Of a DNA stretch of 38,528 nucleotides, positions 4,112-30,682 are shown in pieces. The notes below the pieces were generated by a model, which did not search any database, had not been told where the DNA came from, and worked only from the letters and a program-made list of their open reading frames with translations. A program made the translations under genes and the position numbers. Source of the stretch: Saprospiraceae bacterium (GTDB lineage: Bacteria > Bacteroidota > Bacteroidia > Chitinophagales > Saprospiraceae); NCBI GenBank assembly GCA_027486765.1, contig JAIXOO010000398.1:1-38528 (forward strand). Direction: 5' to 3'. Every line of letters begins with the position of its first letter. The first letter of the stretch is position 1.

Positions 4112-4143
4112 TTTGCCCCTCCCACCCCATTTTCCTATATTTG
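4112..4143 (+). promoter_or_regulatory. Bacteroidota-type promoter for the Roco gene
   Basis: TATATTTG at 4136-4143 is a perfect TAnnTTTG -7 element. TTTG at 4112-4115 is a -33 element with 20 nt between them, matching the consensus of the Bacteroidota primary sigma factor. The start codon is about 53 nt downstream. Confidence 0.6.
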
Positions 4144-4196
4144 ACAAAACACAAATTTACCGCCCCCTCAGGCACCCAAAAAACAACCCTACTCCT

Positions 4197-12800: not shown

Positions 12801-13528
12801 GTTTGAATGAGAAAAATTTAGGGGAGGATCATAATACCACAGTGTCAAGTTACTCCAACTTGGCTATGGTTTTGCGAAGCATTGGTGATTATGGTGGCGC
12901 CCGAGCCTTGCTAGAAAAGGCGAGTTTATCAATTGAAAAGATTTTTGGGTTGGACCACCCTAAAACAATGACTATTTACGCTGAACTCGGAATAATCCTA
13001 GCTGAACAAGGGGACTACATTGGGGGGCGGAATTTGCTAGAAAAAGCAGTTCATTATTTTGAGCAAAATTTCGGAGAGAATCATCCCAAAACTGCGGAGA
13101 GTTATTCCAACCTAGGAGCTCTACTTCAGAATTTAGGGGATTTTGGAGAAGCCCGACTTTTTATGGAAAAAGCGATTAGTTACTATGAACAGAATTTCGA
13201 GTTGAATCATCCAACTACAGCAATGTGTTACTCCAACCTTTCCGAGATTCTTAGAGAACTGGGTGATTACGAAGCCTCGTACATTTTACTGGAAAAAGCA
13301 GTCCTAGCCTTTGAGAAAAACCTCGGTGAGGATCATTACACAACAGCGAGTGCTTACTTTAACCTGGGAATTATTCTTGCGATTCTTGGGCAGTACCAGA
13401 AATCAGGACTTGTCCTTACCAAAGCCTATGCCGTTTTTAACACCCAGCTAGGTCCAGATCACCCCAATACTCAATCAGTGGCATCCTTTCTCCAACAGCT
13501 AGATGACCTTGAACAAAACCCAGACTAA
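9896..13528 (+). CDS. STAND protein: trypsin-like protease, NB-ARC-like NTPase, 14 TPRs (copy A)
   Basis: The product has 1210 residues. Residues 1-190 are a cytosolic chymotrypsin-fold protease: catalytic His47 in 'TCHHV', Asp82 in 'GLDLLVI' and Ser153 in 'GSSGTPV'. Residues ~225-500 are a STAND NTPase with Walker A GIGGIGKTT (257-265), Walker B 'LLIVDN' (Asp338) and 'LLTSREQV' at 361. Residues ~604-1195 hold 14 TPRs with a strict 42-residue period (NLGxxLxxLGDYxxARxLLEKAVxxxExxxGxDHPxT), of the kinesin-light-chain/TPR_12 kind. The expected mechanism is that the TPRs sense a ligand, the NTPase oligomerises and the protease is switched on. It is co-transcribed with Trypco1 (3-nt gap). DNA turns AT-rich where the TPRs begin (about 11650). 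The substrate is unknown. Confidence 0.92.
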   Translation: MPTPILERVPLKQLLQSCTVKLLSSPTGRFLGTGFFVTPDKIATCHHVFFAQDKAITPQFSIEGYPDIFILEGHTQHHPGLDLLVIHLDAPLNKHCINLEPSSSKEGDRLWAWTFNTKYAEGGDLVPILRGAVQHQGHSILRIMRDIVEEGSSGTPVLNIDTGHLLGVVYWKRDDSALIIPAQYFQQHFSDLYTENQNHHQHTTYWAEAQRHSRPQRTKRLTLIPPIDNRDVIGRADDLATLRQRLLDSHKVLLMNGIGGIGKTTLAKLYLNNYAEEYDRLLWLEQKSNLIQDIVTNTLLLQSLGMEQFSGMPAQDIFKQAMLRLQNFNDGVNLLIVDNATQSIRELKDSLPHGPHWHVLLTSREQVSTTFELMELGILSLTAAKELFRLHCSKLQEESALDSFLAQLQYHTLSIELFAKILDAHWELDNVVELSAYLTKRQIDEERLQIVVELEHARGETQLYRHLLSAFDLSGIASRPELLLILQRMAALPPSTEGYLLNDLIEWFGMENEATAFVNNLLELFKLGWLSQGQKNHFGLHRLIGLIVTKVYPAVFEKFTPLIQVFTDKLAIDQIKDNPIHKFRWLPFGQALLAVLGDIEYEKIILLVNNLAIILRATGDYLGARLLLERVINSSEKKYGEDHPNLESIYANLGIILNDLGDFDEGRILLEKAIRITEKNNNGDDTKLVENYHNLSIILQSLGDYAGAQSLLEKIVRIAEKNYGVDHPNTVAIYYNLGCVLYALGNYHMTKILLEKVVRLNEENFGSEHPTTINSFNNLGAALRALGDYSGARDLLAKSVSFNEKNYGPDHSSTGNSYTNLGLVLEALGDYEGARELLEKAVHSFEASFGSGHPSTANSYSNLGLVLQSLGDYKGARDLLEKAVLSDESNFGVNHPSTARSYTNLGLLFKNIGNYNGARTLLENAVRSNEENLGSDHPSTITGYSTLALLFYELGDYNVARDLLEKTVRLNEKNLGEDHNTTVSSYSNLAMVLRSIGDYGGARALLEKASLSIEKIFGLDHPKTMTIYAELGIILAEQGDYIGGRNLLEKAVHYFEQNFGENHPKTAESYSNLGALLQNLGDFGEARLFMEKAISYYEQNFELNHPTTAMCYSNLSEILRELGDYEASYILLEKAVLAFEKNLGEDHYTTASAYFNLGIILAILGQYQKSGLVLTKAYAVFNTQLGPDHPNTQSVASFLQQLDDLEQNPD

Positions 13529-13588: not shown

Positions 13589-16500
13589 ATGCCCACCCCA
13601 CTCCTAACCCGCCACCCCCTCAAGCACCTGCTCGAGCGCAGCACGGTCAAGCTCTTGAGCCACCCTGGCGGCACTTTCCTGGGCACTGGCTTCTTTGTCA
13701 CCCCAGACAAAATCGCCACCTGCCACCACGTATTTTTTACCAATAACAAAGTCATCACCCCCCAGTTCAGTATTGAAGGATACCCCGATATATTCACCTT
13801 GGAAGGCCACACCCAACACCACCCCGGCCTCGACCTGCTGGTGATCCAGCTCGGCAGCTCCCTCTCCCAGCACTGCATCAACCTAGAGTCCACCTCCAAC
13901 CTGGAAGGTGCCCGCCTCTGGGGTTGGTCGTACAATATAAAATACCCTGACGGTGGCGGTATCATTCCTATTCTCCAAGATGTAGCAAAATTTGAGACTT
14001 GGGAGGTCTTTCGTGTATCCCGAGACATCATCACAAATGGAAGCAGTGGCACCCCAGTCTTGAATCTTGAAACTGGAAAATTCCTTGGAGTTACTTATTA
14101 TAGGCTAGAAGACTCAGCCCTCATCATCCCCGCCCAGTACTTCCAGCAACACTTCCCCGACCTCTACACCGAAAACCAAAACCACCACCAACATACCACC
14201 TACTGGGCCGAAGCCCAACAACACAGCCGCCCCCAGCGCACCAAACGCCTGACCCTCATCCCACCCATCGACAACCGGGATGTCATTGGCCGCGCCGACG
14301 ACCTGGCCACCCTGCGCCAACGCCTGCAAGACAGCCACAAAGTCTTGCTCATGAACGGCATCGGCGGCATCGGCAAAACCACCCTGGCCAAATTGTACCT
14401 CAACAACTACGCCGAGGAATACGAGCACCTGCTTTGGCTCGAACAAACCGAAGATCTCATCCAAACTATCACCACCAATACCGCCCTGCTGCGCAGCCTG
14501 AACTTGGAGCAACTCACGGGGCTCAGCCCCCAGGAAATGTTCCAACAGGTGATGCTGAGCCTGCAAAACTTCAACGAGGGCCTCAACCTGCTGGTGATCG
14601 ACAACGTCACACATACACTCCAACCGTACAAAGATAGCCTGCCCCACGGCCCTCACTGGAACGTCTTGCTCACTTCCCGCGAGCAAGTGAGTTCTTCCTT
14701 TGAGCTGCTGGAACTGGGCACCCTTGAACCTGCCGCCGCTCTGGAGCTGTTCCGCCGCCATTGCCACAAACCGCAGGACGAGGCCACCCTCCTGACTTTT
14801 TTGGCCCAGCTGCAATACCACACCCTCAGCATTGAGCTGTTTGCTAAAATTTTGGACAGCCACTGGCAACTGGATAGCGTAGCCGAATTGAGCGACTACC
14901 TCCGCCACAATCAAATCGACGAGGACATCCTGCAAACGGTCATCGAACTGGAACACGCCAAAGGAGAAACCCAACTATACCGCCACCTGCTGCGTGCCTT
15001 TGATCTGTCTGGCCTGAGTACCCACCCAGAATTGATCCTGATTTTGCAACGGATGGCCGCTTTGCCGCCTTCGGCGGAGGGGTATGCCGTGAAAGATTTG
15101 GTTGAATGGTTTGGAGTCGATAATGAGGCTAATTTTTTTGTTAAAAACCTCCATGAACTGTTTAAATTAGGTTTATTGAGCCAGTCTATGGAAAAGGCCT
15201 TTAGCCTGAATCGTATGATTGCGCTGCTTGTAGTAAAAAAATATACAATTGATTTTGAAACACTTAAGCCTCTGATTGAAACCCTCGCTGATAAACTAAG
15301 TTTTGATGAAGCCCAAGATAATCCTATTATGCAACTGCAGTGGATACCATATGGGTATTCGTTGTTAAATTTTTTGGACGACCTGGATTGGGACGAAAAA
15401 AGCTCCTTGCTAAATGACTTAGCTTTAGCCATTAAGTTCTCAGGGGATTACGATACTGCTAGAGAATTACTTGAAAAAGCATTAGCTATTGACGAAATTC
15501 GTTTGGGAGGTGACCACTCTGATACAATTACGATGTTCATAAACTTGGCTTCTGTATTACATGATTTGGGGGATTATTTAAATGAGCAACAACTTTTAGA
15601 AAGAGCATTAGCTACGAATATTAAACATTTTGGACCAGGTCATAAAGGTGAAGCCAACATTTATTCTACTATGGGAAGTTTGAGTAGAGAGTTAGGGCAA
15701 TTTGAGAAGGCTCAAGTACTCCTTGAGAAGGCAGTTAATCTGCACGAAAAATATTTTGGCGATGACCATCCTTATACAACAGAATGTTATTCTAGACTTG
15801 CTTTGGTGCTTCGAGAGCTAGGAGATTTCAAAAATTCAAAAATTTTACTTGAAAAGTCACTAAATTCTGAGGAAAAACATTTTGGTAATGACCACCCCAG
15901 AATGATCTGGCGTTATTCAAATCTGGCTTTACTTCATAATGACTTTGGGGATCCTAAGGCGGCAGCAACATTATTGGAAAAATCAGTTTATTTGTCTGAA
16001 AAGTATTTAGGCCCTTATCATCCATATACTTTAAGGAGTTGTTTGAATTTAGCATTAGCCCTTTTAGAATTGGGTGAGTCTACTGAAGCATATAAGATGC
16101 TAGAAAAAGTAGTGCCTTTAGTTGAAAATCACTATGGACTAAGTCATCCAGAAACAGCAAACGCTTATGCCAACTTAGGTGATGTTCATATGGATTTAGG
16201 AAACTATCTAAAAGCAAAAGTATTAATGGAAAAAGCAGTAAGCATAGATGAGAAGAATTTTGGATCCGATCACCCCACAACTGCCAAGAGTTATTCTGGC
16301 TTGGCTAAAGTTCATTTGAAACTTGGGGATTATAAGAAAGCTAAAGAGTTATCTGAAAAAGTTGTTTTATCTAATGAGCAGAATTATGGTTTGAATCATC
16401 CTAACACTGGAAAAAGTTACACAGATCTAGCCATTGCACTTCAGGAGTTGGGCGATTATACGGGAGCACTTAAATTAATGGAAAAAGTGGTATTAATTGA

Positions 16501-16948
16501 AGAGCGAAATTATGGAGAAGATCATCCCAATTTGGCTGTATGTTACTCAAACTTAGGAGTCGTACTGTGGCAACTAGAAGACTATGAGAGAGCTCGTATT
16601 CTATTAGAAAAAGCGATAGCATTAGAAGAGCAAAATCTAGGGCCAGATCATCCAGATTTAGCTAGGAATTACTCCAGTTTAGCCTTGATAATCCAGGATT
16701 TAGGAGATTACAAAGGCGCACAGATTTTGCTGGAAAAGGCAGTATTAATGGATGAACTGAATTATGGAGAAGGCCATTCAAATACAGCTTTGGATTACAC
16801 AAACCTGGCTTTTGTATATCAGGGTTTGGGAGACATTACAAGAGCGAGAACATTGCTGACTAAAGCTCACTTAATTTATAAAAACCTTTTTGGCCCTGAC
16901 CATCCCTATACCCAACAAGTTCTCAACCTCCTTCAAGACCTATCTTGA
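13589..16948 (+). CDS. STAND protein: trypsin-like protease, NB-ARC-like NTPase, 12 TPRs (copy B)
   Basis: The 1119-residue paralogue of copy A aligns without gaps over at least the first 340 residues, so the key residues share numbers: His47, Asp82, Ser153, Walker A 257-265, Walker B Asp338 in 'LLVIDN'. TPRs start at about residue 605; there are 12 instead of 14, which accounts for nearly all of the length difference. DNA for residues ~175-275 is almost identical to copy A. The second protease lobe (about 100-170) and all TPRs have diverged strongly. This fits duplication with conserved signalling and diversified sensing. It lies 60 nt after copy A on the same strand, and no second Trypco1 gene is present. 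Confidence 0.92.
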   Translation: MPTPLLTRHPLKHLLERSTVKLLSHPGGTFLGTGFFVTPDKIATCHHVFFTNNKVITPQFSIEGYPDIFTLEGHTQHHPGLDLLVIQLGSSLSQHCINLESTSNLEGARLWGWSYNIKYPDGGGIIPILQDVAKFETWEVFRVSRDIITNGSSGTPVLNLETGKFLGVTYYRLEDSALIIPAQYFQQHFPDLYTENQNHHQHTTYWAEAQQHSRPQRTKRLTLIPPIDNRDVIGRADDLATLRQRLQDSHKVLLMNGIGGIGKTTLAKLYLNNYAEEYEHLLWLEQTEDLIQTITTNTALLRSLNLEQLTGLSPQEMFQQVMLSLQNFNEGLNLLVIDNVTHTLQPYKDSLPHGPHWNVLLTSREQVSSSFELLELGTLEPAAALELFRRHCHKPQDEATLLTFLAQLQYHTLSIELFAKILDSHWQLDSVAELSDYLRHNQIDEDILQTVIELEHAKGETQLYRHLLRAFDLSGLSTHPELILILQRMAALPPSAEGYAVKDLVEWFGVDNEANFFVKNLHELFKLGLLSQSMEKAFSLNRMIALLVVKKYTIDFETLKPLIETLADKLSFDEAQDNPIMQLQWIPYGYSLLNFLDDLDWDEKSSLLNDLALAIKFSGDYDTARELLEKALAIDEIRLGGDHSDTITMFINLASVLHDLGDYLNEQQLLERALATNIKHFGPGHKGEANIYSTMGSLSRELGQFEKAQVLLEKAVNLHEKYFGDDHPYTTECYSRLALVLRELGDFKNSKILLEKSLNSEEKHFGNDHPRMIWRYSNLALLHNDFGDPKAAATLLEKSVYLSEKYLGPYHPYTLRSCLNLALALLELGESTEAYKMLEKVVPLVENHYGLSHPETANAYANLGDVHMDLGNYLKAKVLMEKAVSIDEKNFGSDHPTTAKSYSGLAKVHLKLGDYKKAKELSEKVVLSNEQNYGLNHPNTGKSYTDLAIALQELGDYTGALKLMEKVVLIEERNYGEDHPNLAVCYSNLGVVLWQLEDYERARILLEKAIALEEQNLGPDHPDLARNYSSLALIIQDLGDYKGAQILLEKAVLMDELNYGEGHSNTALDYTNLAFVYQGLGDITRARTLLTKAHLIYKNLFGPDHPYTQQVLNLLQDLS

Positions 16949-17110: not shown

Positions 17111-18697
17111 ATGTCGGAAGACCATAAAAAACAACTCGAACAACAACTCTGGAACATCGCCAACACCCTGCGCGGCAAGATGAACGCCGACGAATTCCGC
17201 GACTACATCCTCGGCTTCATCTTTTACAAATACCTCTCCGAGCGCATGTCCATCTACGGCAACAAGCTGCTCAAAGAGGACGGCATCACCTACGAAAGCA
17301 TCGACGAAAGCTCCGCCGAAGGCCAGCTCTACCTCGATGCCGTGCGCACCGAAGCCATCGAAGAACTCGGCTATTTCCTCAAACCCTCCGAACTCTTCCA
17401 CGCCATCGCCAGCCGGGGCAACGGCAACGGCCACGCCACCGCCGAAGGACAAGGCGGCGTCTTCATCCTCGACGACCTCAGCCGCATCCTCAAAAACATC
17501 GAGCAAAGCACCATGGGCACCGAGAGCGAAGACGATTTTGACAAGCTCTTTGAAGACCTCGACCTCACCTCCACCAAACTCGGGCGCACCGAATCGGCCA
17601 AAAACGAGCTGATTGCCAAAGTGCTCTCGCACCTGGATAAGATTGACTTCCAACTGGAAAAAACCGAGCTGGATGTACTGGGCGATGCCTACGAATACCT
17701 GATTGGCCAATTTGCCAGCGGCGCGGGTAAAAAAGCCGGGGAGTTCTACACCCCGCAGGAAGTCTCCAAAGTGTTGGCTCGACTGGTGACCACGGGCAAA
17801 ACCAAAATCAAATCCGCCTACGACCCCACCACAGGCTCCGGCTCGCTGCTGCTGCGCGTAGCCAAGGAGGTGCAGGAGGTATCCGCCTTTTACGGCCAGG
17901 AACTCAACCGCACCACCTACAACCTGGCGCGGATGAACATGATCCTGCACGGCGTTCACTACCGCAAGTTTGACATCCGGCAGGAGGACACCCTGGAGCG
18001 CCCCCAGCACCTGGGCCAACGCTTTGAGGTGATTGTGGCCAATCCGCCCTTTTCTGCGGAGTGGAGCGCCAACCCGCTGCACATGAGCGATGACCGCTTC
18101 AGCCAATACGGCAAACTCGCCCCTTCCTCCAAGGCGGATTTTGCCTTTGTCCAACACATGATTCACCACCTGGATGAAAACGGCCAAATGGCGGTGGTAC
18201 TGCCCCACGGTGCCCTCTTCCGGGGCGGCGCCGAAGGCCACATCCGCCAATACCTAATCGAGGATCGCAACTACCTGGACGCCGTGATCGGCCTTCCGAC
18301 CAACATCTTCTACGGTACCACTATTCCCACTTGTATCCTGGTCTTCAAAAAATGCCGAGAGTATCCCAATGACATCCTCTTCATTGATGCCAGCCAGCAT
18401 TTTGAAAAGGCCAAAAACCAGAACTACCTGCGCGAGGACGATATTGACCGCATCGTCAATACCTATCGCCAGCGCACCGCCACGGAGAAATACAGCTACC
18501 TCGCCCCACTTTCCGAAGTGCGCGAGAACGAGTACAACCTGAATATCCCCCGCTATGTGGATACATTTGAAGAGGAGGAAGCGGTGGATTTGGCGGCGGT
18601 GTCACAGGAACTGGCCCAGCTCAATGCGGCAATGGCGGTGACGGATGCCGAGATTGCCGATTTTTGTCAACAATTGGGGATTGATACTCCGTTTTAA
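17111..18697 (+). CDS. hsdM: Type I restriction-modification methyltransferase subunit HsdM
   Basis: The 528-residue protein is of usual HsdM length. The N-terminal helical HsdM_N domain is clear ('QLWNIANTLRGKMNADEFRDYILGFIFYKYLSERM'). The N6-adenine methyltransferase core has SAM-binding motif I 'DPTTGSGSLL' from Asp238 and catalytic NPPF at 311-314, followed by 'FVQHMIHHLDENGQMAVVLPHGALFRGG'. With HsdS it methylates adenine in the recognition site, and both form the complex that HsdR joins for cleavage. It is first in the operon, with hsdS 6 nt downstream. The protein appears complete and active. The C-terminal acidic segment 'FEEEEAVDLAAV' leads into a helix that normally contacts HsdS. 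Confidence 0.97.
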   Translation: MSEDHKKQLEQQLWNIANTLRGKMNADEFRDYILGFIFYKYLSERMSIYGNKLLKEDGITYESIDESSAEGQLYLDAVRTEAIEELGYFLKPSELFHAIASRGNGNGHATAEGQGGVFILDDLSRILKNIEQSTMGTESEDDFDKLFEDLDLTSTKLGRTESAKNELIAKVLSHLDKIDFQLEKTELDVLGDAYEYLIGQFASGAGKKAGEFYTPQEVSKVLARLVTTGKTKIKSAYDPTTGSGSLLLRVAKEVQEVSAFYGQELNRTTYNLARMNMILHGVHYRKFDIRQEDTLERPQHLGQRFEVIVANPPFSAEWSANPLHMSDDRFSQYGKLAPSSKADFAFVQHMIHHLDENGQMAVVLPHGALFRGGAEGHIRQYLIEDRNYLDAVIGLPTNIFYGTTIPTCILVFKKCREYPNDILFIDASQHFEKAKNQNYLREDDIDRIVNTYRQRTATEKYSYLAPLSEVRENEYNLNIPRYVDTFEEEEAVDLAAVSQELAQLNAAMAVTDAEIADFCQQLGIDTPF

Positions 18698-18703
18698 AAT
18701 GGG

Positions 18704-19930
18704 ATGATTATGACGGCGAAGATGAAGGTTCCAAAGTTGAGGTTTGCAGAGTTTGAGGGAGAGTGGGAGGAAAGAAAACTCGGAGACATAACAAAATGGG
18801 CTTCAGGAGGTACCCCTTCTAAAGACAGAGATGACTATTGGAATGGAGAAATCCCTTGGATAAGTGCTTCTAGCATGAAGGGTAATGAGTTCGGTGACTC
18901 TAATTTGAAGATATCAAAAAAGGGATTAGAAAAAGGCTCTAAACTCGCAAAGCAAGGCTCTATACTTATTTTGGTTCGAGGTAGCATGCTGTTTAATATT
19001 ATTCCGGTTGGAGTTACAACCCGAGATGTCGCATTCAATCAAGATGTAAAGTCAATAGATGTCTTCGATGGCAATGAGGTCAAATATTTACTTTACTGGC
19101 TAATTGCATCGGAAAGTAAGCTTCTAAATATGGTCACTGGTACGGGGATCGGTGCAGGGAAATTGGATTTGTTGGACTTAAAGAAATTAGCTGTATTTGT
19201 TCCCACCCTCCCCGAACAACAAAAAATCGCCACCTTCCTATCCACCATTGACACCCGCATCCAGCAGCTCAGCCGCAAGAAAGCCCTGCTGGAGCAATAC
19301 AAAAAAGGGGTAATGCAGCAGATTTTTTCACAGGAAATCCGCTTTAAAGATGAGGAGGGGAAGGAGTTTCCTGCGTGGGAGGAGAAGAGATTGGGGGAAA
19401 TTGGAAATTTTATTGGAGGGGGTACCCCAGACACACAAAATAGTGAATACTGGGACGGGGACATTCTATGGTTTACCCCAACTGAGGTTAAAGAGGGTAT
19501 TTTGACCAATAGTAAAAGAAAAATTACGGAACAAGGACTACGAAATTCTTCCGCCAAACTACTTCCAGCAGGCGCCTTGTTAATAACGACAAGAGCTACT
19601 ATCGGGGACATTGGAATCGCAAAATTTCCTTGCACTACCAATCAAGGTTTCCAATCTCTTGTTGTAAACAAAAATCAAGTAAATATCTTTTGGTACTATT
19701 GGTTTTTGTGCAATAAAAATGAATTAATTAGACTTTGTTCAGGTTCTACATTCCCGGAAATAGGGAAAAATAAGATAATTCAAATTGCAGCCTCTGTTCC
19801 TACACAACCTGAACAACAAAAAATCGCCACCTTCCTTTTCACCCTAGATAGCCAGATTAATCAAATAGCGCAGCAATTGAATCGAATGCAAGCCTTCAAA
19901 AAAGGCCTCTTGCAGCAAATGTTTGTATAA
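18704..19930 (+). CDS. hsdS: Type I restriction specificity subunit HsdS
   Basis: The 408-residue protein has two target-recognition domains, each opening with a characteristic motif ('RKLGDITKWASGGTPS' near residue 25, 'KRLGEIGNFIGGGTPD' near 230). Each is followed by a conserved helical dimerisation segment ('EQQKIATFLSTIDTRIQQL' in the middle, 'EQQKIATFLFTLDSQINQI' at the end). HsdS chooses the bipartite DNA target of the HsdMSR complex. The recognition domains are AT-rich while the helical spacers are GC-rich and near-identical at DNA level, indicating domain shuffling by recombination. The ATG at 18704 is 6 nt after hsdM; in-frame ATGs at 18710 and 18722 are alternatives. Confidence 0.96.
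   Translation: MIMTAKMKVPKLRFAEFEGEWEERKLGDITKWASGGTPSKDRDDYWNGEIPWISASSMKGNEFGDSNLKISKKGLEKGSKLAKQGSILILVRGSMLFNIIPVGVTTRDVAFNQDVKSIDVFDGNEVKYLLYWLIASESKLLNMVTGTGIGAGKLDLLDLKKLAVFVPTLPEQQKIATFLSTIDTRIQQLSRKKALLEQYKKGVMQQIFSQEIRFKDEEGKEFPAWEEKRLGEIGNFIGGGTPDTQNSEYWDGDILWFTPTEVKEGILTNSKRKITEQGLRNSSAKLLPAGALLITTRATIGDIGIAKFPCTTNQGFQSLVVNKNQVNIFWYYWFLCNKNELIRLCSGSTFPEIGKNKIIQIAASVPTQPEQQKIATFLFTLDSQINQIAQQLNRMQAFKKGLLQQMFV
19214..19836 (+). repeat. 26-bp direct repeats flanking the second HsdS recognition domain
   Basis: Bases 19214-19239 and 19811-19836 are identical over 26 bp and encode EQQKIATFL in both conserved helical regions. They bracket the second recognition domain and could serve as substrates for homologous exchange of specificity domains. 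Confidence 0.85.
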
Positions 19931-19942
19931 AAACCCTATTCC

Positions 19943-19996
19943 ATGACCACACCATCCGAACAAATCCTGAAACCACAGCAGTTTGTAACAATTTAG
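19943..19996 (+). pseudogene. Duplicated 5' stub of hsdR (insertion scar)
   Basis: A 17-codon open frame begins MTTPSEQIL, nearly identical to the true HsdR start MTTQSEQIL at 22161. At DNA level about 31 bp (19941-19971) match 22159-22189 with only two mismatches, then similarity ends and the frame closes at 19994-19996. It lies just downstream of hsdS, where hsdR would normally begin. This is best read as a duplication left when the ATPase-TOPRIM pair was inserted at the start of hsdR. Confidence 0.8.
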
Positions 19997-20016
19997 GGGT
20001 AAAAAACGTAACTTTG
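19982..20016 (+). promoter_or_regulatory. Promoter of the nested ATPase-TOPRIM module
   Basis: TAACTTTG at 20009-20016 is a perfect TAnnTTTG -7 element, with TTTG at 19982-19985 upstream (23-nt spacing, at the long end of the accepted range). The ATG at 20029 follows closely. The inserted pair therefore carries its own promoter within the hsd operon. Confidence 0.55.
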
Positions 20017-20028
20017 AGTGTAAACGCC

Positions 20029-21417
20029 ATGAGTATGATTACCAAACTGGAAATATCGGGCTTCAAATCATTTTCCAACTTTAGCGTTGACCTGGCACCA
20101 TTTGTGGTGGTAGCCGGGCTCAATGGGGCTGGCAAGAGCAATTTGTTCGATGCCATCAGTTTGTTGTCCGATCTGGCGAAAATGAACATTCAGGAGGCTT
20201 TCGGCAAACAGCGGGGCACTGCCCTGGAGCTGTTTACCCAATATGGCCAGAGCCAAACGGCCACCGAAATGGCCTTTGCAGTAGAAATGCTCCTCGACAA
20301 AACCATTCGTGACTCCTGGGGCGAAAAGGCCGAGCTGCAATACACCCGCCTGCGTTACGAGCTCATCATCGAGCGCCGACCCGACCGCAGCGGCATCCAG
20401 CGGCTTTTTATCAAGTATGAATCCCTCAGGTCCATTCCAGCCTCCACCGATCAGTGGTACAATACCTACGTAGGATCTGATAACCGGCATTGGCGGCCAG
20501 TACAAGCGGACAATCCTGAATTTTTCATCAATACTGGCCGATTGACCGGTGGAAATCACGAAACCATTATCATCCTCCAACAAAGAACAGCTGGGGGCAG
20601 TAGTTTCCGACACAATATCGAACACCTGGAGAGCACCATGCTCAACAGGGCCAACGATACCCAGTATTCCCATGCTTTTGCTACCCGCGAGGCCATGCGC
20701 AATTGGGGGCTTTTGCAACTCGATCCTACCGAACTAAGCAAACCCTCGGCCAGCCTTCAATCTTTAAGCCAGATGGCTCCCGATGGTGCCGGGTTGGCTT
20801 CGACTTTGTACCGCATCAAGCAGGAAACTCCTCTGATTTTTAATGACATTTCAGTAGAATTGATCAGCCTCATTCCCGATATTAAGGGAATTGATGTCAG
20901 GCTTGACCCTTATGAGAATAGATACGTACTCAGCCTGGAAATGGACGACGGTCGTACGTTTAGTTCCAAGGTTTTTTCAGAAGGTACCCTGCGTACCCTG
21001 GCTCTGCTGACGCTCAAACACGACGAAAAACACCATGGCGTCTTGTGTTTTGAAGAGCCCGAAAATGGGGTCAACCCTCGGCTTATTGTCCAACTGAGTG
21101 CCTTGTTGCGCGATATGAGCACCATTTTTCAACAAGATCCTAAGGCTGAGTTTCCACTTCGACAGGTGTTGATCAATACCCATTCGCCCGTGTTGGTTGG
21201 TGAGATCAAACAAATGGAGCACTTTGATCAATGGGGCATGTTGTTGTTTGCCCGGCAAGTTACCCAGGTTAAAAAAGGCCACAAATGGAAACATTCCCTG
21301 ATCACACCAGTGAGCAGTGCAGAGGGCAACTTGTTTTGGGAAAAAAACATGGAGCAAGGCTTGCGATCGGTTAATCGGGAAGAGCTGCGGCACTATCTGG
21401 AAACGGCAAAATTTTAA
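20029..21417 (+). CDS. ABC-type AAA ATPase (AAA_21/RloA-AriA-like) nested in the hsd operon
   Basis: The product has 462 residues from the ATG at 20029 (an ATG at 20035 is equally possible). The start 'LEISGFKSFSNFSVDLAPF' is typical of SMC/OLD-like ATPases. Walker A GLNGAGKSN covers residues 30-38. The signature is 'FSEGTLRTLALLTL', Walker B is 'GVLCFEEPENG' with Glu342/343, and 'LINTHSPVL' is the H-loop. Known relatives pair with a nuclease: RloA/RloB ('R-linked ORFs' of type I loci), AbiL, and PARIS AriA/AriB. The likely role is to sense an invader or sequester and release the downstream TOPRIM protein in an abortive anti-phage response. It lies between hsdS and hsdR, 23 nt before its partner gene. 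The role is inferred from family and context. Confidence 0.88.
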   Translation: MSMITKLEISGFKSFSNFSVDLAPFVVVAGLNGAGKSNLFDAISLLSDLAKMNIQEAFGKQRGTALELFTQYGQSQTATEMAFAVEMLLDKTIRDSWGEKAELQYTRLRYELIIERRPDRSGIQRLFIKYESLRSIPASTDQWYNTYVGSDNRHWRPVQADNPEFFINTGRLTGGNHETIIILQQRTAGGSSFRHNIEHLESTMLNRANDTQYSHAFATREAMRNWGLLQLDPTELSKPSASLQSLSQMAPDGAGLASTLYRIKQETPLIFNDISVELISLIPDIKGIDVRLDPYENRYVLSLEMDDGRTFSSKVFSEGTLRTLALLTLKHDEKHHGVLCFEEPENGVNPRLIVQLSALLRDMSTIFQQDPKAEFPLRQVLINTHSPVLVGEIKQMEHFDQWGMLLFARQVTQVKKGHKWKHSLITPVSSAEGNLFWEKNMEQGLRSVNREELRHYLETAKF

Positions 21418-21440
21418 GCAACCCCGCGAATCCACATCAA

Positions 21441-22136
21441 ATGAACGCACTGTACAGCTCTTTTTGGGGAGAAGGGAAAACGGATGAGCGATTTTTTCCA
21501 ACCCTGATCAAAAGGGTTTTGGAGGAATTGTTGCAGGCATGTGCGCGGGGAGAGTGGGACGTTGAAACACCCATTGCCTTGAAAAGTGAAAAGGATGGTT
21601 TTGTCGCATCGGTGCTGGATGTGGCGCAACAATCTATAGGCTATTCACTGGTTTTTGTACACACCGATGCAGATGCCCCCAGCATTGCCCAAAAGGCCCT
21701 GCCCAACAAAATTGACCCGGCACTAAAAGCAGTCGAAGGACTTGATGAGAATCAGGCTTGTAAATATGTCGTCCCAGTTGTGCCCGTTACAAAGACAGAA
21801 AATTGGAAACTGGCTGATGTTGAGGCTTTGGAACAAATTTTAGGTGTTCAACTCGACCGACCAGCTCTGGGTTTGAACAAAAGTGCAGAAAACCTTGAAG
21901 AATACGCTGATTCTAAAAATCTTTTGCAAAATGTCATCAAAGCTGCCGCAGAACAAAGAAAGAGTAAGCATTCCTTGTCTCCCAATGTGCTGGATGATGC
22001 CCTGGCCAAACAAATCAGCTTGCAGGCATTGAACAGATTTAGCTCATTTAGGCATTTTTTGGATGGCTTAAAAAAAGCCTTGATCGACCAAAATATCATT
22101 GAACAGGATTGCAGCCCCTCATTTATGACCCCTTGA
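21441..22136 (+). CDS. TOPRIM-like nuclease (DUF4276/RloB-like), partner of the nested ATPase
   Basis: The 231-residue protein shows the TOPRIM-type acidic signature: Glu11 in 'WGEGKTDERFF', an Asp76-x-Asp78 pair in 'VHTDAD' after a hydrophobic strand, and 'ENWKLAD' at 120-126. The last motif is typical of DUF4276/RloB-type proteins. Its overall length matches that group. These proteins act as metal-dependent nucleases (some cut tRNA) controlled by a partner ATPase. The ATPase gene ends 23 nt upstream, and hsdR starts 24 nt downstream. All acidic residues expected for activity are present. Whether the target is tRNA or DNA cannot be told from the sequence. Confidence 0.75.
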   Translation: MNALYSSFWGEGKTDERFFPTLIKRVLEELLQACARGEWDVETPIALKSEKDGFVASVLDVAQQSIGYSLVFVHTDADAPSIAQKALPNKIDPALKAVEGLDENQACKYVVPVVPVTKTENWKLADVEALEQILGVQLDRPALGLNKSAENLEEYADSKNLLQNVIKAAAEQRKSKHSLSPNVLDDALAKQISLQALNRFSSFRHFLDGLKKALIDQNIIEQDCSPSFMTP

Positions 22137-22160
22137 CCCCATTAAACGCCAGCCACGCCC

Positions 22161-25088
22161 ATGACCACACAATCCGAACAAATCCTGGAAGACAACCTCG
22201 TCAAGCAGCTCAATACCTTGGGCTACGACCTGGTATCCATCCGCAACGAGGCGGAGCTGTTGGCCAACCTCAAAGGCCAATTGGAAAAACACAACGGGGT
22301 GACCTTGAGCAAGGGCGAGTTCGACAAGGTTTTGAACCACCTGAACAAGGGCAACAGCTTCGACCGCGCTAAACTCCTGCGCGACCGCTTCCAACTCACC
22401 CGCGACAATGGCGAGAACCTCTACCTGGAGTTCCTGAATCTGGAGCATTGGTGCCAAAACCAGTACCAGGTCACCCAGCAGGTGAGCATGGAGGGAACCT
22501 ACAAGAACCGTTACGATGTCACTTTGCTGATCAACGGCCTGCCCCTGGTGCAAATCGAACTCAAGAAGCGTGGCCTGGAACTGAAAGAGGCCTTCAACCA
22601 AATCAACCGTTACCACCGCCATTCCTTCGGGGCATCCTATGGCCTGTACCAATTCGTGCAGATTTTTGTCATCAGCAATGGCGTGAACACCAAGTATTAC
22701 GCCAACAACCGCGATCAATCGTTCAAACAAACCTTCTATTGGACCGACCAGAACAATAAGGCCATCACCCGCCTGGAGGGTTTCGCTGAGGCTTTTTTGG
22801 AGAAATGCCAGCTCTCCAAAATGATCTGCAAATACATCGTCCTGCACGAGTCGGATAAGATTCCCCTGGTGCTGCGCCCTTACCAGTATTATGCAGTAGA
22901 AGCCTTGATCGACCGGGTGAAAAACAGCAACAAAAACGGCTACATCTGGCATACTACAGGCTCGGGTAAAACCCTCACCTCCTTCAAGGCCAGTCAAATC
23001 CTGGTCAAGCTCCCGCAGGTGCACAAGGTGGTGTTTGTGGTGGATCGCAACGACCTGGACTACCAGACTACCCGTGAGTTCAACTACTTTTCGGAAGGCA
23101 GCGTAGACGGTACTGACAACACCGCTCAGCTCGTCAAACAACTCGCCGACGATACCAAACTGATTGTTACCACCATTCAAAAACTCAATACCGCCATCAG
23201 CAGGCCGCACTATCAGCGGCAAATCCAACCTAAGTTGGCAGCGGAGGCGCAGGGAATCTATGCCCGACAGTCAGGGCAAACGCCAGGCCTCCCCGAGCGG
23301 CGCATCATCTTCATTTTTGACGAATGCCACCGCAGCCAGTTTGGCGAGACCCACAAACGCATCGTGGCCTTTTTCCCCAATGCCCAACTCTTTGGCTTTA
23401 CAGGTACGCCCATCTTTGTTGACAACGCCGTGGCCAACCAGTTCGGCAAGCGCACCACCAAGGAGCTTTTTGACGAGTGCCTGCACAAATACGTAATCAC
23501 CAATGCCATCCGCGACGAGAACGTCCTGCGCTTTTCCATCGAATACGTCGGGCGCTACAAGCAAAAGGAAGGCAGCGAGGTGGAGCTGGACATTCCGGTG
23601 GAGGAAATCGACACCAAAGAACTACTGGAATCACCGCAGCGCCTGGATCGCATCGTGGACTACATCATCCAGCAGCATCCGCGCAAAACGCATCAGCGCC
23701 AGTTTACGGCCATTTTTTGTGTGAGTAGTGTGGATGTGCTGATCAAGTACTACGAGTTGTTCCGCGCCAAAAAACAGGCTGGCCAGCACGACCTGCGCAT
23801 CGCCACCATTTTTTCCTACGCCGCCAATGAGGACGACAAAGACGCCAACGGCCTGATCGGTGACCCTGATCTGGAAATCAAAGAAGGCGCGGCGATCAAT
23901 GTCCATTCCCGCGAGAAGCTAGACGAGTTCATCGAAGACTACAACGCGCTGTACAACACCAAGTTTTCAACCAAGGACAGCCAGAGTTTTTACAATTATT
24001 ACAAGGACATCGCCAAACGCATCAAGGATCGGGAGCAAAAAACCTTCCAGGAGCAAAACCGGGTGGACATCCTGCTGGTGGTGAACATGTTCCTCACAGG
24101 TTTTGACGCCAAAAAAGTCAACACCCTTTACGTGGACAAAAACCTGAAACACCACGGCCTAATCCAGGCTTTTTCCCGCACCAACCGCATCTTGAACGAG
24201 GTCAAATCCTACGGCAACATCGTGTGTTTCCGCAACCTCAAAAAGGCCACCGACGACGCCATCGCCCTCTTCTCCAATCTGGACGCCAAAGAGGTGATCC
24301 TGATGCAACCCTACGAGGTGTACGTCCGCAAGTTCGACGATGCGCTCAGCAAACTCCTGGAGATTGCCCCCACCGTAGACAGCGTCAACGAGCTCCCCAG
24401 CGAGGAGGAGGAACTGGACTTCGTCAAAGCCTTCCGCGAGCTGATGCGCCTGCGCAACATCCTTTCCGGCTTCTCCGATTTTGAGTTCACCGACCTGGCC
24501 ATGGACGAGCAGGATTTTGAAGACTACAAAAGCAAATACCTCGACATTTACGACAAGGTAAAAACCACCACCGAGAAGGAAAAAGTCTCCATCCTCAACG
24601 ACGTGGATTTTGAGCTGGAACTGATCCACCGCGATGAAATCAACGTGGTGTACATCCTCAAACTGCTGGGCAAATTGCACGAGGCCGAGGAAGAGGAAAA
24701 AGAAGCGCAGCGCAAGGTCATCAGCGACCTCCTGGGCGGCGAAGCGCAACTGCGTAGCAAAAAGGAGCTGATTGAAAAATTCATCCGCGAGAACCTGCCC
24801 TTCATCAAAGAGAGTGAAGAAATCCCCGAAGCCTTTGAAGCCTTCTGGAACAGCGAAAAAATCCAGGCTCTGGAGCAATTGTGCATCGACGAGCAGTTAA
24901 ACCCGGAGCAACTCAGCAAATTACTGGAGGATTATTTGTTCTCCGGGCGCACTCCGCTTAGTGAGAGCGTGGTGGCGGCCATGCAGGTGAAGCCTAAACT
25001 GTTGGAGCGCAAGTCGATCGTGGAACGGATTAAGGAAAGGATTTTGGATTTGGTGGCGACGTTTGAGGATGCGATGGGGAGTTTGTAG
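22161..25088 (+). CDS. hsdR: Type I restriction endonuclease/translocase subunit HsdR
   Basis: The 975-residue protein is of normal HsdR size. It has an N-terminal PD-(D/E)xK nuclease with Asp119 ('RYDVTLLI') and Glu133-x-Lys135 ('QIELKKRG'). An SF2 translocase follows: Walker A 'TTGSGKTL' with Lys270, DECH box at 387-390 and 'LFGFTGTPI' (motif III). A second RecA domain contains 'VVNMFLTGFDAKKVNTLYVDK' and 'IQAFSRTNRI'. The C-terminal ~250 residues are the helical region that docks HsdM. It cleaves DNA unmethylated at HsdS sites after ATP-driven translocation. It is separated from hsdS by the inserted two-gene module, and its first codons are duplicated at 19943. Confidence 0.97.
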   Translation: MTTQSEQILEDNLVKQLNTLGYDLVSIRNEAELLANLKGQLEKHNGVTLSKGEFDKVLNHLNKGNSFDRAKLLRDRFQLTRDNGENLYLEFLNLEHWCQNQYQVTQQVSMEGTYKNRYDVTLLINGLPLVQIELKKRGLELKEAFNQINRYHRHSFGASYGLYQFVQIFVISNGVNTKYYANNRDQSFKQTFYWTDQNNKAITRLEGFAEAFLEKCQLSKMICKYIVLHESDKIPLVLRPYQYYAVEALIDRVKNSNKNGYIWHTTGSGKTLTSFKASQILVKLPQVHKVVFVVDRNDLDYQTTREFNYFSEGSVDGTDNTAQLVKQLADDTKLIVTTIQKLNTAISRPHYQRQIQPKLAAEAQGIYARQSGQTPGLPERRIIFIFDECHRSQFGETHKRIVAFFPNAQLFGFTGTPIFVDNAVANQFGKRTTKELFDECLHKYVITNAIRDENVLRFSIEYVGRYKQKEGSEVELDIPVEEIDTKELLESPQRLDRIVDYIIQQHPRKTHQRQFTAIFCVSSVDVLIKYYELFRAKKQAGQHDLRIATIFSYAANEDDKDANGLIGDPDLEIKEGAAINVHSREKLDEFIEDYNALYNTKFSTKDSQSFYNYYKDIAKRIKDREQKTFQEQNRVDILLVVNMFLTGFDAKKVNTLYVDKNLKHHGLIQAFSRTNRILNEVKSYGNIVCFRNLKKATDDAIALFSNLDAKEVILMQPYEVYVRKFDDALSKLLEIAPTVDSVNELPSEEEELDFVKAFRELMRLRNILSGFSDFEFTDLAMDEQDFEDYKSKYLDIYDKVKTTTEKEKVSILNDVDFELELIHRDEINVVYILKLLGKLHEAEEEEKEAQRKVISDLLGGEAQLRSKKELIEKFIRENLPFIKESEEIPEAFEAFWNSEKIQALEQLCIDEQLNPEQLSKLLEDYLFSGRTPLSESVVAAMQVKPKLLERKSIVERIKERILDLVATFEDAMGSL

Positions 25089-27178: not shown

Positions 27179-28156
27179 ATGGCTGCCGCAGATCAAATCA
27201 AAAGTTTAATCCAATCTTTTGGAGAACAGGATGAAGATCGCTTCTTCTCTACAGCCATGCAAATTGCGGCATCCGAAGCCCGTCAAGGGCGTACCGCCTT
27301 CGCACAGGAACTCAAAAAACTGATCGAAAAAAACCGCAAGGCTTTTGCCGATGCCTCGGCTACCGAAGGCAAAACCATCCCGCTGTCACTCCCTAAGCGT
27401 GAGTTGCAAGAACTCATCGATGTATTCCAGCCACGTTTGCGTTTGCGCGATATGGTCCTTGCACCCAATGTCCGGGAGTCTTTAGATACCCTGCTGCGGG
27501 AACAAGAAAGTTGGGAAATCCTCCGCCAGCACAATCTTTCCCCCCGCCGTAAGCTGCTGCTCACAGGAGCCCCTGGTACCGGCAAAACGATGACTGCCCA
27601 AGCCCTCGCTGGCGAACTGGGGCTGGCCGTGTACATCATCCGCCTAGATGGCCTCCTATCCAAGTACATGGGCGAATCCATCGCCAAGCTGCGCCTCATT
27701 TTTGACGCCATGCAGGATCACCGCGCTGTTTACCTCTTTGACGAGTTTGATTCCATTGGCTCGCACCGCGATCAAGGCCAGGATGTTGGCGAAGCCAAAC
27801 GAGTCCTCAATAGTTTTTTGATCAACATCGAAAAAGACGAAAGCAACAGCATCATCATCGCCGCCACCAACCTCCCCGATGCGCTGGATAAGGCGCTTTT
27901 CCGCCGTTTTGATGATGTTGTGGCCTATCCCCTACCCCAGCAAGAGCAAATTGTTGCTTTGCTGGAAATGCGTTTGTCTGGGTATTCATTTAAGGAAAAA
28001 GTAAATTTCGCCAGCCTCGCCAAATTGGCTCAAGGTTTGAATTATTCTGATCTTGGCAAGGCTTGTGAAGATGTAATTAAAGATATGATCATCAAAGGGC
28101 AAAAGGAATTATCATTGGTGAACCTTAAAAATGCTCTTGAAAAACGAAAACTGTAA
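27179..28156 (+). CDS. AAA+ ATPase paired with subtilase
   Basis: The 325-residue protein has a ~90-residue helical N-terminal region, then a classical AAA+ module of the FtsH/VPS4/spastin kind. Walker A is GAPGTGKT at 130-137 and Walker B is 'VYLFDEFDSIG' with Asp188/Glu189. Sensor 1 is 'IIIAATN', the arginine fingers are in 'LFRRFDD' (Arg242/243), and a helical lid follows. 'LLSKYMGES' is the pore-loop region, so it probably threads a protein substrate. Its stop codon directly abuts the ATG of the S8 protease gene, implying tight coupling and a two-component ATPase-protease. Similar AAA-subtilase pairs occur in bacterial defence islands; the trigger is unknown. Confidence 0.92.
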   Translation: MAAADQIKSLIQSFGEQDEDRFFSTAMQIAASEARQGRTAFAQELKKLIEKNRKAFADASATEGKTIPLSLPKRELQELIDVFQPRLRLRDMVLAPNVRESLDTLLREQESWEILRQHNLSPRRKLLLTGAPGTGKTMTAQALAGELGLAVYIIRLDGLLSKYMGESIAKLRLIFDAMQDHRAVYLFDEFDSIGSHRDQGQDVGEAKRVLNSFLINIEKDESNSIIIAATNLPDALDKALFRRFDDVVAYPLPQQEQIVALLEMRLSGYSFKEKVNFASLAKLAQGLNYSDLGKACEDVIKDMIIKGQKELSLVNLKNALEKRKL

Positions 28157-30682
28157 ATGCCTGTAAAAAACCCTAAACAGCACATTCGTTTGCAGGGATA
28201 TTCCCGCAGCGAAAAATACAAATATCCCCGCTTCTCGGGAAGTCCCGATTTTAAAAGAAAGCTCCAAAATCGGCAATTACACGGCAAAGCGATTTTGCGG
28301 CAGCTCGAACAAATTCGCATCCAATTCTCAATTCCAGCGGATCAGGAACTTTCCACGGATATCATTCGGGATGATGCCCTTTATGTAGAGTTTACTTCTG
28401 AATGGGGGCATGCATTGAAGTTTGAAAGTTTTAACAAGGATACCCAAGAGCCAAAGTTCCAAATCTTGAATGTTCGCTCGGAATCCAGAACTTTAAATGA
28501 AGAGGAAGAAGAACTGCGCTACCACATCACGGTCATGATGACTAAGGGGGGAATCTCTGAATTCATTAAGAAAGTTGAGAAGTATCTGGATATTACCAAA
28601 AAGACTAAAAAGGATAATATTTGGCATGCTGATTTAGTCAACAACATTGCATCTGTTCAGTTGGCTACCTTAAAGGCTTTCTGGACGGACGCTCCAGAAA
28701 TTCCATTCCCTGCTGAAGATGAAGTGGTATGGTGGGAAGCGTGGTTTAGAAAAACCTCCAACGATGAGCAAAAACTAGCCAATGTTCTTCAAAATTTGCA
28801 AACATTTGAGGTGCAAATTGGAGAAACTGAGCTGGATTTTCCAGAACATTGGGTAAGATTACTACGTGGTTCTTCTGCTCAGTTAGCTGCTTCTTTGCTG
28901 CTTTTGGATAACCTTGCTGAACTGCGTAAGCCCCAGGAGACGGCTCAATTCTTTTTGGGCCAACTAAAATATGAAGACCGACAGGAATGGGTCGCTGATC
29001 TTAGCGAACGAACTGAAACCTTGGTCACCGAAGACAGTGTCTTGGTTTGTATTTTGGATTCAGGTGTCAATCATCAACATCCTTTGTTGCTTCCATTTTT
29101 GCCTAATCCTCACCTGTATGCTTATAACCCAAGTTGGGGAGTTGATGACAGTGTTTCCCCCGGAGGTCATGGCACTGGAGTGGCTGGTTTAGCATTGTAT
29201 GGCGATTTGGTTGACGCACTGGCTAGCCCAAGCAGAATCCAGATTTACCATGGTTTAGAGTCTTATAAGATGATCCAGCGGGGCACAGCTAGCGACCCTG
29301 AATTGTATGGTGCCATTACTGAAACAGCAGTCAGTACACCCTTGGTAGACCGCCCGTTCAATCCTCGCGTTTTTTGTATGACCATCACTGCTGAACAGAT
29401 CTTTGCTGGTCGTCCCTCGGCCTGGTCTGCTGCAGTTGACAAAATTGCTTTTGGTTCTCACCTTGATCCTGCCAGTCCTCAGTTGCTGATTTTAAGTGGC
29501 GGCAACGTTGAAATTGAGAAACATCAAGATTACCCGCATAAGAATCAATTAGAAACTGTTCAAGACCCTGCTCAAGCATACAATGCCATTACCGTGGGTT
29601 CGTATACCCGGAAAGATCGTTTATCAACCATTGCTTACCGCCCGCTGGCTCCAGTTGGCGCTATGGCACCCAGCAACTCTACCTCTTTAACTTGGGATCA
29701 TCAGTGGCCAATCAAGCCAGATATCGTCATGGAAGGAGGAAACCGTTCAACTGATGGAGTAAATACCTGGGATGATGATGCGTTACAACTTCTTTCGTTA
29801 GACAAAGACTACCAGCAGTACCTCCTTCAACCTTTTCATTCCACCAGCGCCTCTGCTGCCTTGGCTGCACGCTTCGCTGCAACTTTGCGAACAGCTTATC
29901 CAGAATTATGGCCGGAAACCATCCGAGGTCTCATGGTCCATTCCGCGGAGTGGACTTCTGCCATGCGGCAAGATTATGACCTCAATAAAGAAAGTGAGCG
30001 CAAAGCACTTTTGCGAACGGTTGGTTACGGTGTTCCCGTGCTTACAAAAGCCCTTCATAGTGCTAGGAATAGCTTGACCTTAATTGCAGAAAGAACCATT
30101 CAACCCTATCAGAAAACCATCCAAAATCGCATCAATTACAAGGAATATCACTTGTACGAATTGCCTTGGCCGACTAAAGTTTTAGCCAATGAGCTTTTTG
30201 ATCAGGATGTTACACTGAAAGTAACCCTTTCCTATTTCATTGAGCCTAATCCGGGTAAACGAAGTGCCGAATATGCTCAAAGTGTGCAGTATCATTCTCA
30301 CGCCCTTGAATTTTCGGTCATCAAGCCACTAGAAAATATCGAGCAGTTCAAACGCCGAATCTCCGCTTATTCTGAAGCACCAGATGAAGAGACAGAAGAA
30401 AAGGAAGAGGTCAATTTTAAAGGTGAACCTTGGGAAATTAACCGCCCCAGATTGAGAGGTTCTGTTAAAAAGGATTTCTTTACCATGTCGGGAGCTGAAA
30501 TGGCTACTCGACACGTGATTGCCGTGTATCCCAAAAGTGGGTGGTATAAAATGCGTAAAAAATTGGATCGTGCAAATGCTAAAGTTCGCTACAGCTTGAT
30601 AGTGTCATTAGAGACTCCTAGCATAGATGTGGATATTTATACTCCGGTGTTGAATCAGATTGCAGTGAAGGTGGAGGTATGA
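28157..30682 (+). CDS. Subtilisin-family (S8) serine protease, cytosolic
   Basis: The 841-residue protein has no signal peptide, unlike most secreted subtilases. A ~290-residue N-terminal region with no recognised fold precedes the catalytic domain: Asp301 in 'CILDSGVNHQHP', His338 in 'GGHGTGVAG', oxyanion Asn450 in 'LSGGN' and Ser564 in 'STSASAALAA'. A long insertion lies between His and Asn. The C-terminal ~250 residues are beta-rich and end with a Glu-rich segment ('EAPDEETEEKEEVNF'). The complete triad predicts activity. The gene starts at the base after the AAA+ stop, so the ATPase likely delivers substrate to it or controls it. Confidence 0.93.
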   Translation: MPVKNPKQHIRLQGYSRSEKYKYPRFSGSPDFKRKLQNRQLHGKAILRQLEQIRIQFSIPADQELSTDIIRDDALYVEFTSEWGHALKFESFNKDTQEPKFQILNVRSESRTLNEEEEELRYHITVMMTKGGISEFIKKVEKYLDITKKTKKDNIWHADLVNNIASVQLATLKAFWTDAPEIPFPAEDEVVWWEAWFRKTSNDEQKLANVLQNLQTFEVQIGETELDFPEHWVRLLRGSSAQLAASLLLLDNLAELRKPQETAQFFLGQLKYEDRQEWVADLSERTETLVTEDSVLVCILDSGVNHQHPLLLPFLPNPHLYAYNPSWGVDDSVSPGGHGTGVAGLALYGDLVDALASPSRIQIYHGLESYKMIQRGTASDPELYGAITETAVSTPLVDRPFNPRVFCMTITAEQIFAGRPSAWSAAVDKIAFGSHLDPASPQLLILSGGNVEIEKHQDYPHKNQLETVQDPAQAYNAITVGSYTRKDRLSTIAYRPLAPVGAMAPSNSTSLTWDHQWPIKPDIVMEGGNRSTDGVNTWDDDALQLLSLDKDYQQYLLQPFHSTSASAALAARFAATLRTAYPELWPETIRGLMVHSAEWTSAMRQDYDLNKESERKALLRTVGYGVPVLTKALHSARNSLTLIAERTIQPYQKTIQNRINYKEYHLYELPWPTKVLANELFDQDVTLKVTLSYFIEPNPGKRSAEYAQSVQYHSHALEFSVIKPLENIEQFKRRISAYSEAPDEETEEKEEVNFKGEPWEINRPRLRGSVKKDFFTMSGAEMATRHVIAVYPKSGWYKMRKKLDRANAKVRYSLIVSLETPSIDVDIYTPVLNQIAVKVEV

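Follow-up and report, generated by a model that had tools for sequence, protein, structure and literature searches.

Copies of hsd gene ends suggest that an HEC-01-type pair may have entered a type I restriction operon by recombination

Introduction

Why does a pair of genes inside a type I restriction operon follow a fragment of the very gene that it precedes, and how did it come to lie there? To our knowledge, the route by which cargo lacking a recombinase enters type I operons is not settled. The question is raised by a locus of a Saprospiraceae bacterium (assembly GCA_027486765.1), examined here in a window that is the whole 38,528-nucleotide (nt) stretch of contig JAIXOO010000398.1 (our C374, in a genome of 7.72 Mb and 514 contigs). 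In it, two genes of the candidate defence type HEC-01 (HEC, Hma-embedded candidate; PMC12988326, citing Payne et al. 2024) lie between hsdS and hsdR, behind a short copy of the hsdR start that we call the stub. We propose that this cargo was acquired from another hsd operon by a recombination event with one homologous and one illegitimate junction, and we put the probability of this reading at a little over one half. The hsdS-hsdR slot is already published as a site of cargo; the recurring copies of gene ends described below are the new part.

A copy of the hsdR start lies at the hsdS-hsdR junction

The stub occupies positions 19941-19972 (plus strand, as does the whole operon) and is identical at 30 of 32 positions to 22159-22190, which comprise the first 30 bases of hsdR and the two bases before its ATG. 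It begins 10 bp after the end of hsdS, the specificity subunit gene (18704-19930; PF01420, 2.5e-55), its ATG stands 12 nt past the hsdS stop codon and its frame is closed after 17 codons by the TAG at 19994-19996. The stub is followed by the leader of the inserted module (19973-20034), a gene for an ABC/SMC-head ATPase (20035-21417, with the conserved start at 20035 and an earlier ATG at 20029) and, 23 nt further on the same strand, a gene for a DUF4276 TOPRIM-like protein (21441-22136). A right junction of 22 nt (22137-22158) leads from the stop codon of the latter to the second copy of the repeat and into hsdR, which is full-length and intact (22161-25088, 975 amino acids; TIGR00348, 3.1e-142). 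The methyltransferase subunit gene hsdM (17111-18697; TIGR00497, 4.7e-132; PF02384, 1e-108) opens the operon. A near-copy of the hsdR start after hsdS, its closure after 17 codons and an hsdR left intact had all been claimed in an original prediction made from the sequence, and each is borne out. That prediction had also considered that the similarity might recur at many unrelated sites; when the 121 bases 19930-20050 were searched against all contigs of the genome, two places were returned at E ≤ 0.001, the stub itself and the hsdR start (E = 8.3e-7), and the stub is therefore neither a chance match nor a dispersed repeat.

An insert-free version of the site is found in a relative, G026, whose hsdR is 74% identical and starts 11 nt after the hsdS stop codon, on a contig that ends inside hsdS. 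The stub position in the window corresponds to this hsdS-hsdR junction, which agrees with the earlier view of the pair as an insert at the hsdR start and with the expectation that in uninterrupted relatives hsdS should be followed directly by hsdR there. Six further relatives, whose sequences were read by eye, hold other cargo at the site: RloA/RloB-like pairs in G005 and in one G035 locus, and other genes in G047, G044, G006 and a second G035 locus.

Copies of gene ends recur in other hsd operons

We surveyed 152 hsdR loci, the window included, of which 145 were left after removal of seven exact duplicates and nothing else. An hsdS open reading frame (ORF) of at least 150 amino acids was present in 109 of the 145, and the gap between hsdS and hsdR (median 1354 bp) was below 60 bp in 16 of these, 60-249 bp in three and at least 250 bp in 90. 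All loci with such an ORF and a gap of at least 60 bp, again counting the window and dropping none, form the set of 93 gaps used below. Where all three genes are present (100 loci), the intergenic distance reaches 250 bp or more at hsdS-hsdR in 81 and at hsdM-hsdS in 22. The 36 loci that lack such an hsdS ORF include L040 and L055, with a direct hsdS-hsdR junction, and L074, with a copy of the hsdS end that we did not count; 28 of them (a hand count) with more than 300 bp upstream were tested for copies, and none scored above 30. Cargo families include DUF3800, Abi_2, AAA_21, RloB, Fic, Uma2, PDDEXK_3, Abi_C, PIN and tyrosine recombinases. The Pfam tallies cover 164 of the 173 cargo ORFs, nine short ones being left out, and RloB-family proteins, of the Rlo type that the original prediction placed inside type I operons, account for 4 of the 164.

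With a score of at least 43 required, a copy of the locus's own hsdR start region is present in 8 of the 93 gaps, and seven of these copies (the window, L088, L103, L104, L111, L161 and L184) begin at the start codon. They range from 24 to about 145 nt in length. Copies of the hsdS end occur in five gaps (L075, L083, L128, L192 and L194), and in each the match stops 0-4 nt before the stop codon is complete. Control segments were nearly absent from the gaps: the start, end and interior of hsdM were found in 0 of 85 each, the hsdS interior in 0 of 93 and hsdR +200..+380 in 1 of 93 (L128, whose gap holds both an hsdS-end copy and this weak match). A cross-locus null of 1095 pairs had a mean score of 21.8, and the 12 highest values listed all came from copy-holding gaps. 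Around the seven start copies, the 24 nt downstream of the start codons agree with hsdR at 154 of 168 positions, a figure that is high by selection; the informative figure is that of the 20 nt upstream, which agree at 47 of 140 positions, about background. The surveyed loci lack phylogenetic independence, and the start-codon rule is a small one, drawn from these seven cases. An hsdR-start match in L042 was rejected as a short tandem repeat.

The stubs are followed by HEC-01 genes in the window, by Abi_2 in L111, L161 and L184, and by cargo including DUF3800 in L088 and L103. Duplicated hsdR starts thus occur in operons with other cargo. A more distant HEC-01-like pair in a member of the same family (L158, 2983-6998) lies directly after hsdS without one. 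The L161 stub reaches a stop after nine codons. Codon differences between stubs and intact hsdR genes comprise 13 synonymous and 10 other changes, where a uniform model expects 20% synonymous (p = 1e-4), a rough test with hand-chosen aligned codons in which transitions would raise the synonymous expectation. The stub of L184 is closer to the hsdR start of L070 than to its own (122 vs 103) and that of L161 is closer to L160 (50 vs 45); across the 145 loci the stubs of L088, L103 and L104 tie their own hsdR with others, and those of the window and L111 match their own best.

Some of these loci show further fusions or fragments. In L184 (as fetched), an ORF at 4741-5782 joins the start of an apparent four-helix-type protein to an hsdS 3' part and runs into the hsdR stub, behind which follow an Abi_2 gene and then hsdR, so that the slot appears to contain an older hsdS-hsdR junction. 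The first cargo protein of L111 (6729-7739, 336 amino acids, a weak Abi_C match) has a C-terminal stretch that resembles the HsdR end (E = 4.7e-10), the only such stretch among the 173 cargo ORFs, and this tail could have been left by the 3' end of an hsdR or have been borrowed as a docking segment. A different contig of the source genome (G000:C9:4507-4638, L052) carries 44 codons of an hsdR C-terminus, with 75% identity, in an ORF otherwise unlike HsdR.

Proposed history of the insert and its alternatives

We infer the donor, the crossover and the order of events as follows. The source would have been a related hsd operon whose hsdR already had an HEC-01-type pair directly upstream, and the cargo would have come in on a piece of its DNA. 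On the right, this donor DNA would have recombined homologously somewhere in hsdR; its left end would have been fused, by illegitimate joining, to the resident hsdR at about codon 10. Codons 1 to 9 or 10 of the old gene would thus have stayed behind as a stub after hsdS, with a complete hsdR following the cargo. The proposed reaction is known as homology-facilitated illegitimate recombination (PMC3240628). Taken by itself, the window fits a very close donor or a plain duplication alike, and recombination is preferred because of the other operons. A target-site duplication would ignore gene boundaries and tend to a fixed length, and copies that respect gene ends would be expected from an allele with unrelated neighbours; the preference for recombination arises because the copies begin at the start codon in seven of seven loci and vary in length. 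The duplication of target sequence invoked by the original prediction is accordingly a possible origin of the stub, but a less likely one than a leftover of recombination. The hsdM-hsdS gap of L057 holds, at 6122-6202 between two cargo blocks, a 30-nt copy of the hsdS start that runs into a 54-nt copy of the hsdM end; the two share 3 nt at the joint, and the hsdM-end copy finishes at the stop codon, which is what would result from a donor fragment (hsdM end, cargo, hsdS) whose right side was anchored and whose left side was joined illegitimately. Because the stubs of L088, L111, L161 and L184 sit behind earlier cargo, the arrangement suggests that new cargo is added next to hsdR.

Several observations weigh against this proposed history. 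The window stub differs from hsdR by one or two bases, with one clear codon change, which is nonsynonymous, and one more at the edge. Its own hsdR is by far its nearest match (50 vs 39), the other hsdR genes of the set being distant. Nothing marks the present hsdR as foreign, since hsdM and hsdR share their G+C content at third codon positions (GC3; 0.737 and 0.742) and no obvious mosaic break was seen against two relatives; neither measure yielded a foreign-hsdR signal. No copy of the hsdR start region is present in 85 of the 93 gaps, the eighth copy, that of L057, is internal to hsdR (+70..+106), and the synonymous excess leans on L088, which supplies 6 of the 13 changes. Finally, where hsdM and hsdS are at least 60 bp apart (29 gaps), copies of the hsdS start are not bound to the start codon: that of L168 reaches at least 40 nt upstream and that of L057 8 nt upstream, that of L094 lies upstream of and across an ATG, and that of L184 starts from +3. 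Those of L168 and L094 look like local duplications, which implies that simple duplications also happen in these operons; matches in L115 and L165 were rejected as tandem repeats.

In crossing gene boundaries, these hsdM-hsdS copies count against recombination and in favour of a direct insertion into hsdR near codon 10, by transposition or integration with a target duplication of about 30 bp, in which the present hsdR would be the original. Such an event would explain the direct repeats that flank the module, the closeness of the stub to its own hsdR and the common GC3 of hsdM and hsdR. It is harder to reconcile with copies that vary several-fold in length across seven loci and yet start at the start codon, with hsdS-end copies that finish at the stop codon, and with the lack of any recombinase family among the two genes of the insert and the four minus-strand ORFs in or overlapping it, although a recombinase might act in trans. 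On balance we hold a direct insertion to be unlikely. The same gene-end boundaries would be predicted if the stub were the remnant of a further hsdR, once complete, the order hsdS-hsdR-cargo-hsdR having arisen by tandem duplication or merging of loci before deletion of the first hsdR, and L088 and L184 do keep longer stubs with fading similarity. We consider this history improbable, because no long hsdR remnant was found when the 93 gaps were searched by tblastn with HsdR: the search returned 38 codons in L088 and the weak C-terminal match in L111. Perhaps the stub is no relic at all and serves as a functional leader through which the module's translation or regulation is coupled to hsdS, as its ATG 12 nt after the hsdS stop codon would allow. 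That hsdR-start copies are present in only 7 of the 93 occupied gaps, with varying position and length and, in L161, an early stop, makes such a role very improbable.

If recombination between hsd operons is indeed at work, a wider scenario can be entertained, in which type I operons grow into layered defence arrays: cargo would move on fragments anchored in hsd genes, truncated gene ends would be the scars, new cargo would be stacked by hsdR with the older cargo staying in place, and the direct repeat of stub and hsdR could allow clean loss of cargo. We regard this scenario as tentative and somewhat doubtful, since the boundary-crossing hsdM-hsdS copies count against it as well. Restriction genes would then be homology anchors for trading and stacking defences between bacteria, and gene-end scars would be a readable trace of the order of insertions and of the sites where donor DNA was joined. 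The HEC-01 module of the window is otherwise an ordinary candidate defence pair.

Identity and occurrence of the inserted pair

By its profile matches, the inserted pair is of the known candidate defence type HEC-01, in a known slot. The ATPase matches the PADLOC model HEC-01A (PDLC04184, 1.6e-126, profile positions 1-460 of 464) and its partner HEC-01B (PDLC04210, 2e-37, positions 1-211 of 217); in Pfam the former matches AAA_21 (2.3e-25) and AAA_15 and the latter DUF4276 (PF14103, 1e-7). The best NCBIfam model, MAD3 (MADS), reached 143.3 bits, under its cut-off of 420. The original prediction had likened the pair to RloAB, an identity that must be given up: the second protein is DUF4276/HEC-01B, and RloB (PF13707) went unmatched at E up to 0.1. 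The AriB family of PARIS is DUF4435, and an AriB-type effector was likewise rejected, DUF4276 being the only Pfam match of the second protein at E up to 0.1 and AriB being absent from the nine PADLOC families listed; AriA matches the ATPase more weakly than HEC-01A does (2e-26 vs 1.6e-126). The arrangement of OLD nucleases does not apply, as the ATPase and the TOPRIM-like protein are two separate ORFs.

The prediction of an ATPase paired with a TOPRIM protein held for the ATPase. Its fold model is middling (predicted local distance difference test, pLDDT, 68), with best matches to Rad50/SMC heads and PtuA-type ATPases. The assignment also draws on an alignment of six sequences, and the profile of the ATPase matches OLD and AriA weakly. 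The DUF4276 model is good (pLDDT 86.6) and its best fold match is the OLD C-terminal region, a weak one (E = 0.018, template modelling score 0.40); a profile search with this protein found no solved relative of note. TOPRIM nucleases are expected to carry acidic EG and DxD motifs. The window's DUF4276 protein has EG and DAD, which are not shared by all six aligned sequences, so that TOPRIM-like is a fair label for the predicted fold, not a proven one. From its family and from known ATPase-TOPRIM systems, the pair is likely to be a defence system, in which the ATPase would sense infection and hold or activate a toxic TOPRIM-like effector.

It had been suggested that the pair is a back-up suicide system that could fire when restriction is blocked. 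Such sensing may be imagined, but the family was also encountered by itself at five other places, which speaks against HsdR as an obligatory partner. Six places with the DUF4276 protein were detected, in 5 of 60 genomes (its own included). Around the five places outside the window, 9.8-18 kb were searched by tblastn with the Hsd proteins of the window and no hsd gene turned up, a search that distant type I families could escape. Judged from these surroundings, the pair is not dependent on restriction genes. In a phylum sample of 395 genomes, three had the ATPase family at E up to 1e-40, again counting its own. Spread of the pair on plasmids was rejected, as the DUF4276 protein matches 1 of 72,556 records, at 27% identity.

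One of the solo copies bears on the promoter. The leader contains the element TTTG-N23-TAACTTTG (19982-20016), which we take to fit the Bacteroidota promoter consensus. The pattern occurs three times in the window against 1.64 expected, and on that count the promoter placed before the ATPase gene by the original prediction is plausible only. In G004, of the same genus, the pair stands alone between unrelated genes with 75% identity in DNA over 2133 columns, and the alignment begins at window base 20001, just ahead of TAACTTTGAGTG, a box that is kept there. Since the solo copy starts to align just before this conserved box, the inserted module probably carries its own promoter.

Relation to known systems

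The likeness to HEC-01 lies in the side-by-side matches of both proteins to the HEC-01A and HEC-01B models, and the window pair differs in lying inside a type I operon, with hsdS before it and hsdR behind it. Antiviral activity is reported for several HECs including HEC-06 (PMC12988326); HEC-01 itself is a candidate. Cargo inside type I operons is described for DarTG2, between hsdS and hsdR of enteropathogenic Escherichia coli at a site called a potential recombination hotspot (PMC12255303), for rloA and rloB in a restriction/modification region of Campylobacter jejuni (PMC2928727), and for RloF between hsdR and hsdS and TgvAB in a Vibrio cholerae operon (PMC11411939). The cargo differs from ours in each case, and copies of hsd gene ends at the junctions are not mentioned in the available portions of these reports. 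PARIS, as outlined in PMC9122126 and PMC12409363, combines the AriA ATPase with the AriB Toprim tRNase and senses the anti-restriction protein Ocr; it shares with the window pair the separate genes for an ABC ATPase and a TOPRIM-type effector. A parallel for the proposed history is found in type VI secretion loci of V. cholerae, where, according to PMC8189183, modules are added serially: homologous recombination and homology-facilitated illegitimate recombination have exchanged modules or brought in new ones and left remnants of earlier genes behind. There the genes concerned are effector-immunity genes and not restriction operons. Literature on hsdR relics, repeats or such recombination yielded no account of gene-end copies in hsd operons, within a scope that left preprints and most subscription journals outside.

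The slot before hsdR holds other kinds of cargo as well. Tyrosine recombinases are matched by 10 of the 164 scanned cargo proteins and hsdS domains by another 10, perhaps reflecting phase-variable hsdS sets in the same slot. Outside Bacteroidota, an Arcobacter plasmid (L223) has DUF2971 and Fic genes before hsdR, and an Acinetobacter plasmid (L224) has an annotated abortive infection gene in this gap; an E. coli operon with an IS1 gene between hsdM and hsdR was dropped from the comparison.

Neighbouring genes

Just upstream of the operon lie two large neighbouring genes with NB-ARC and TPR domains (9896-13528 and 13589-16948), the second also with a trypsin-like domain; by their domain content they are NLR-like defence candidates. 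Further upstream, 4113-8903 encodes a long leucine-rich-repeat Roc-COR protein that ends in the effector-associated domain EAD11. Tandem WD40-repeat proteins are encoded on the minus strand at 32356-35022 and 35081-37915, and an AAA ATPase gene with a subtilase gene directly behind it (27179-30682) may form a two-gene unit.

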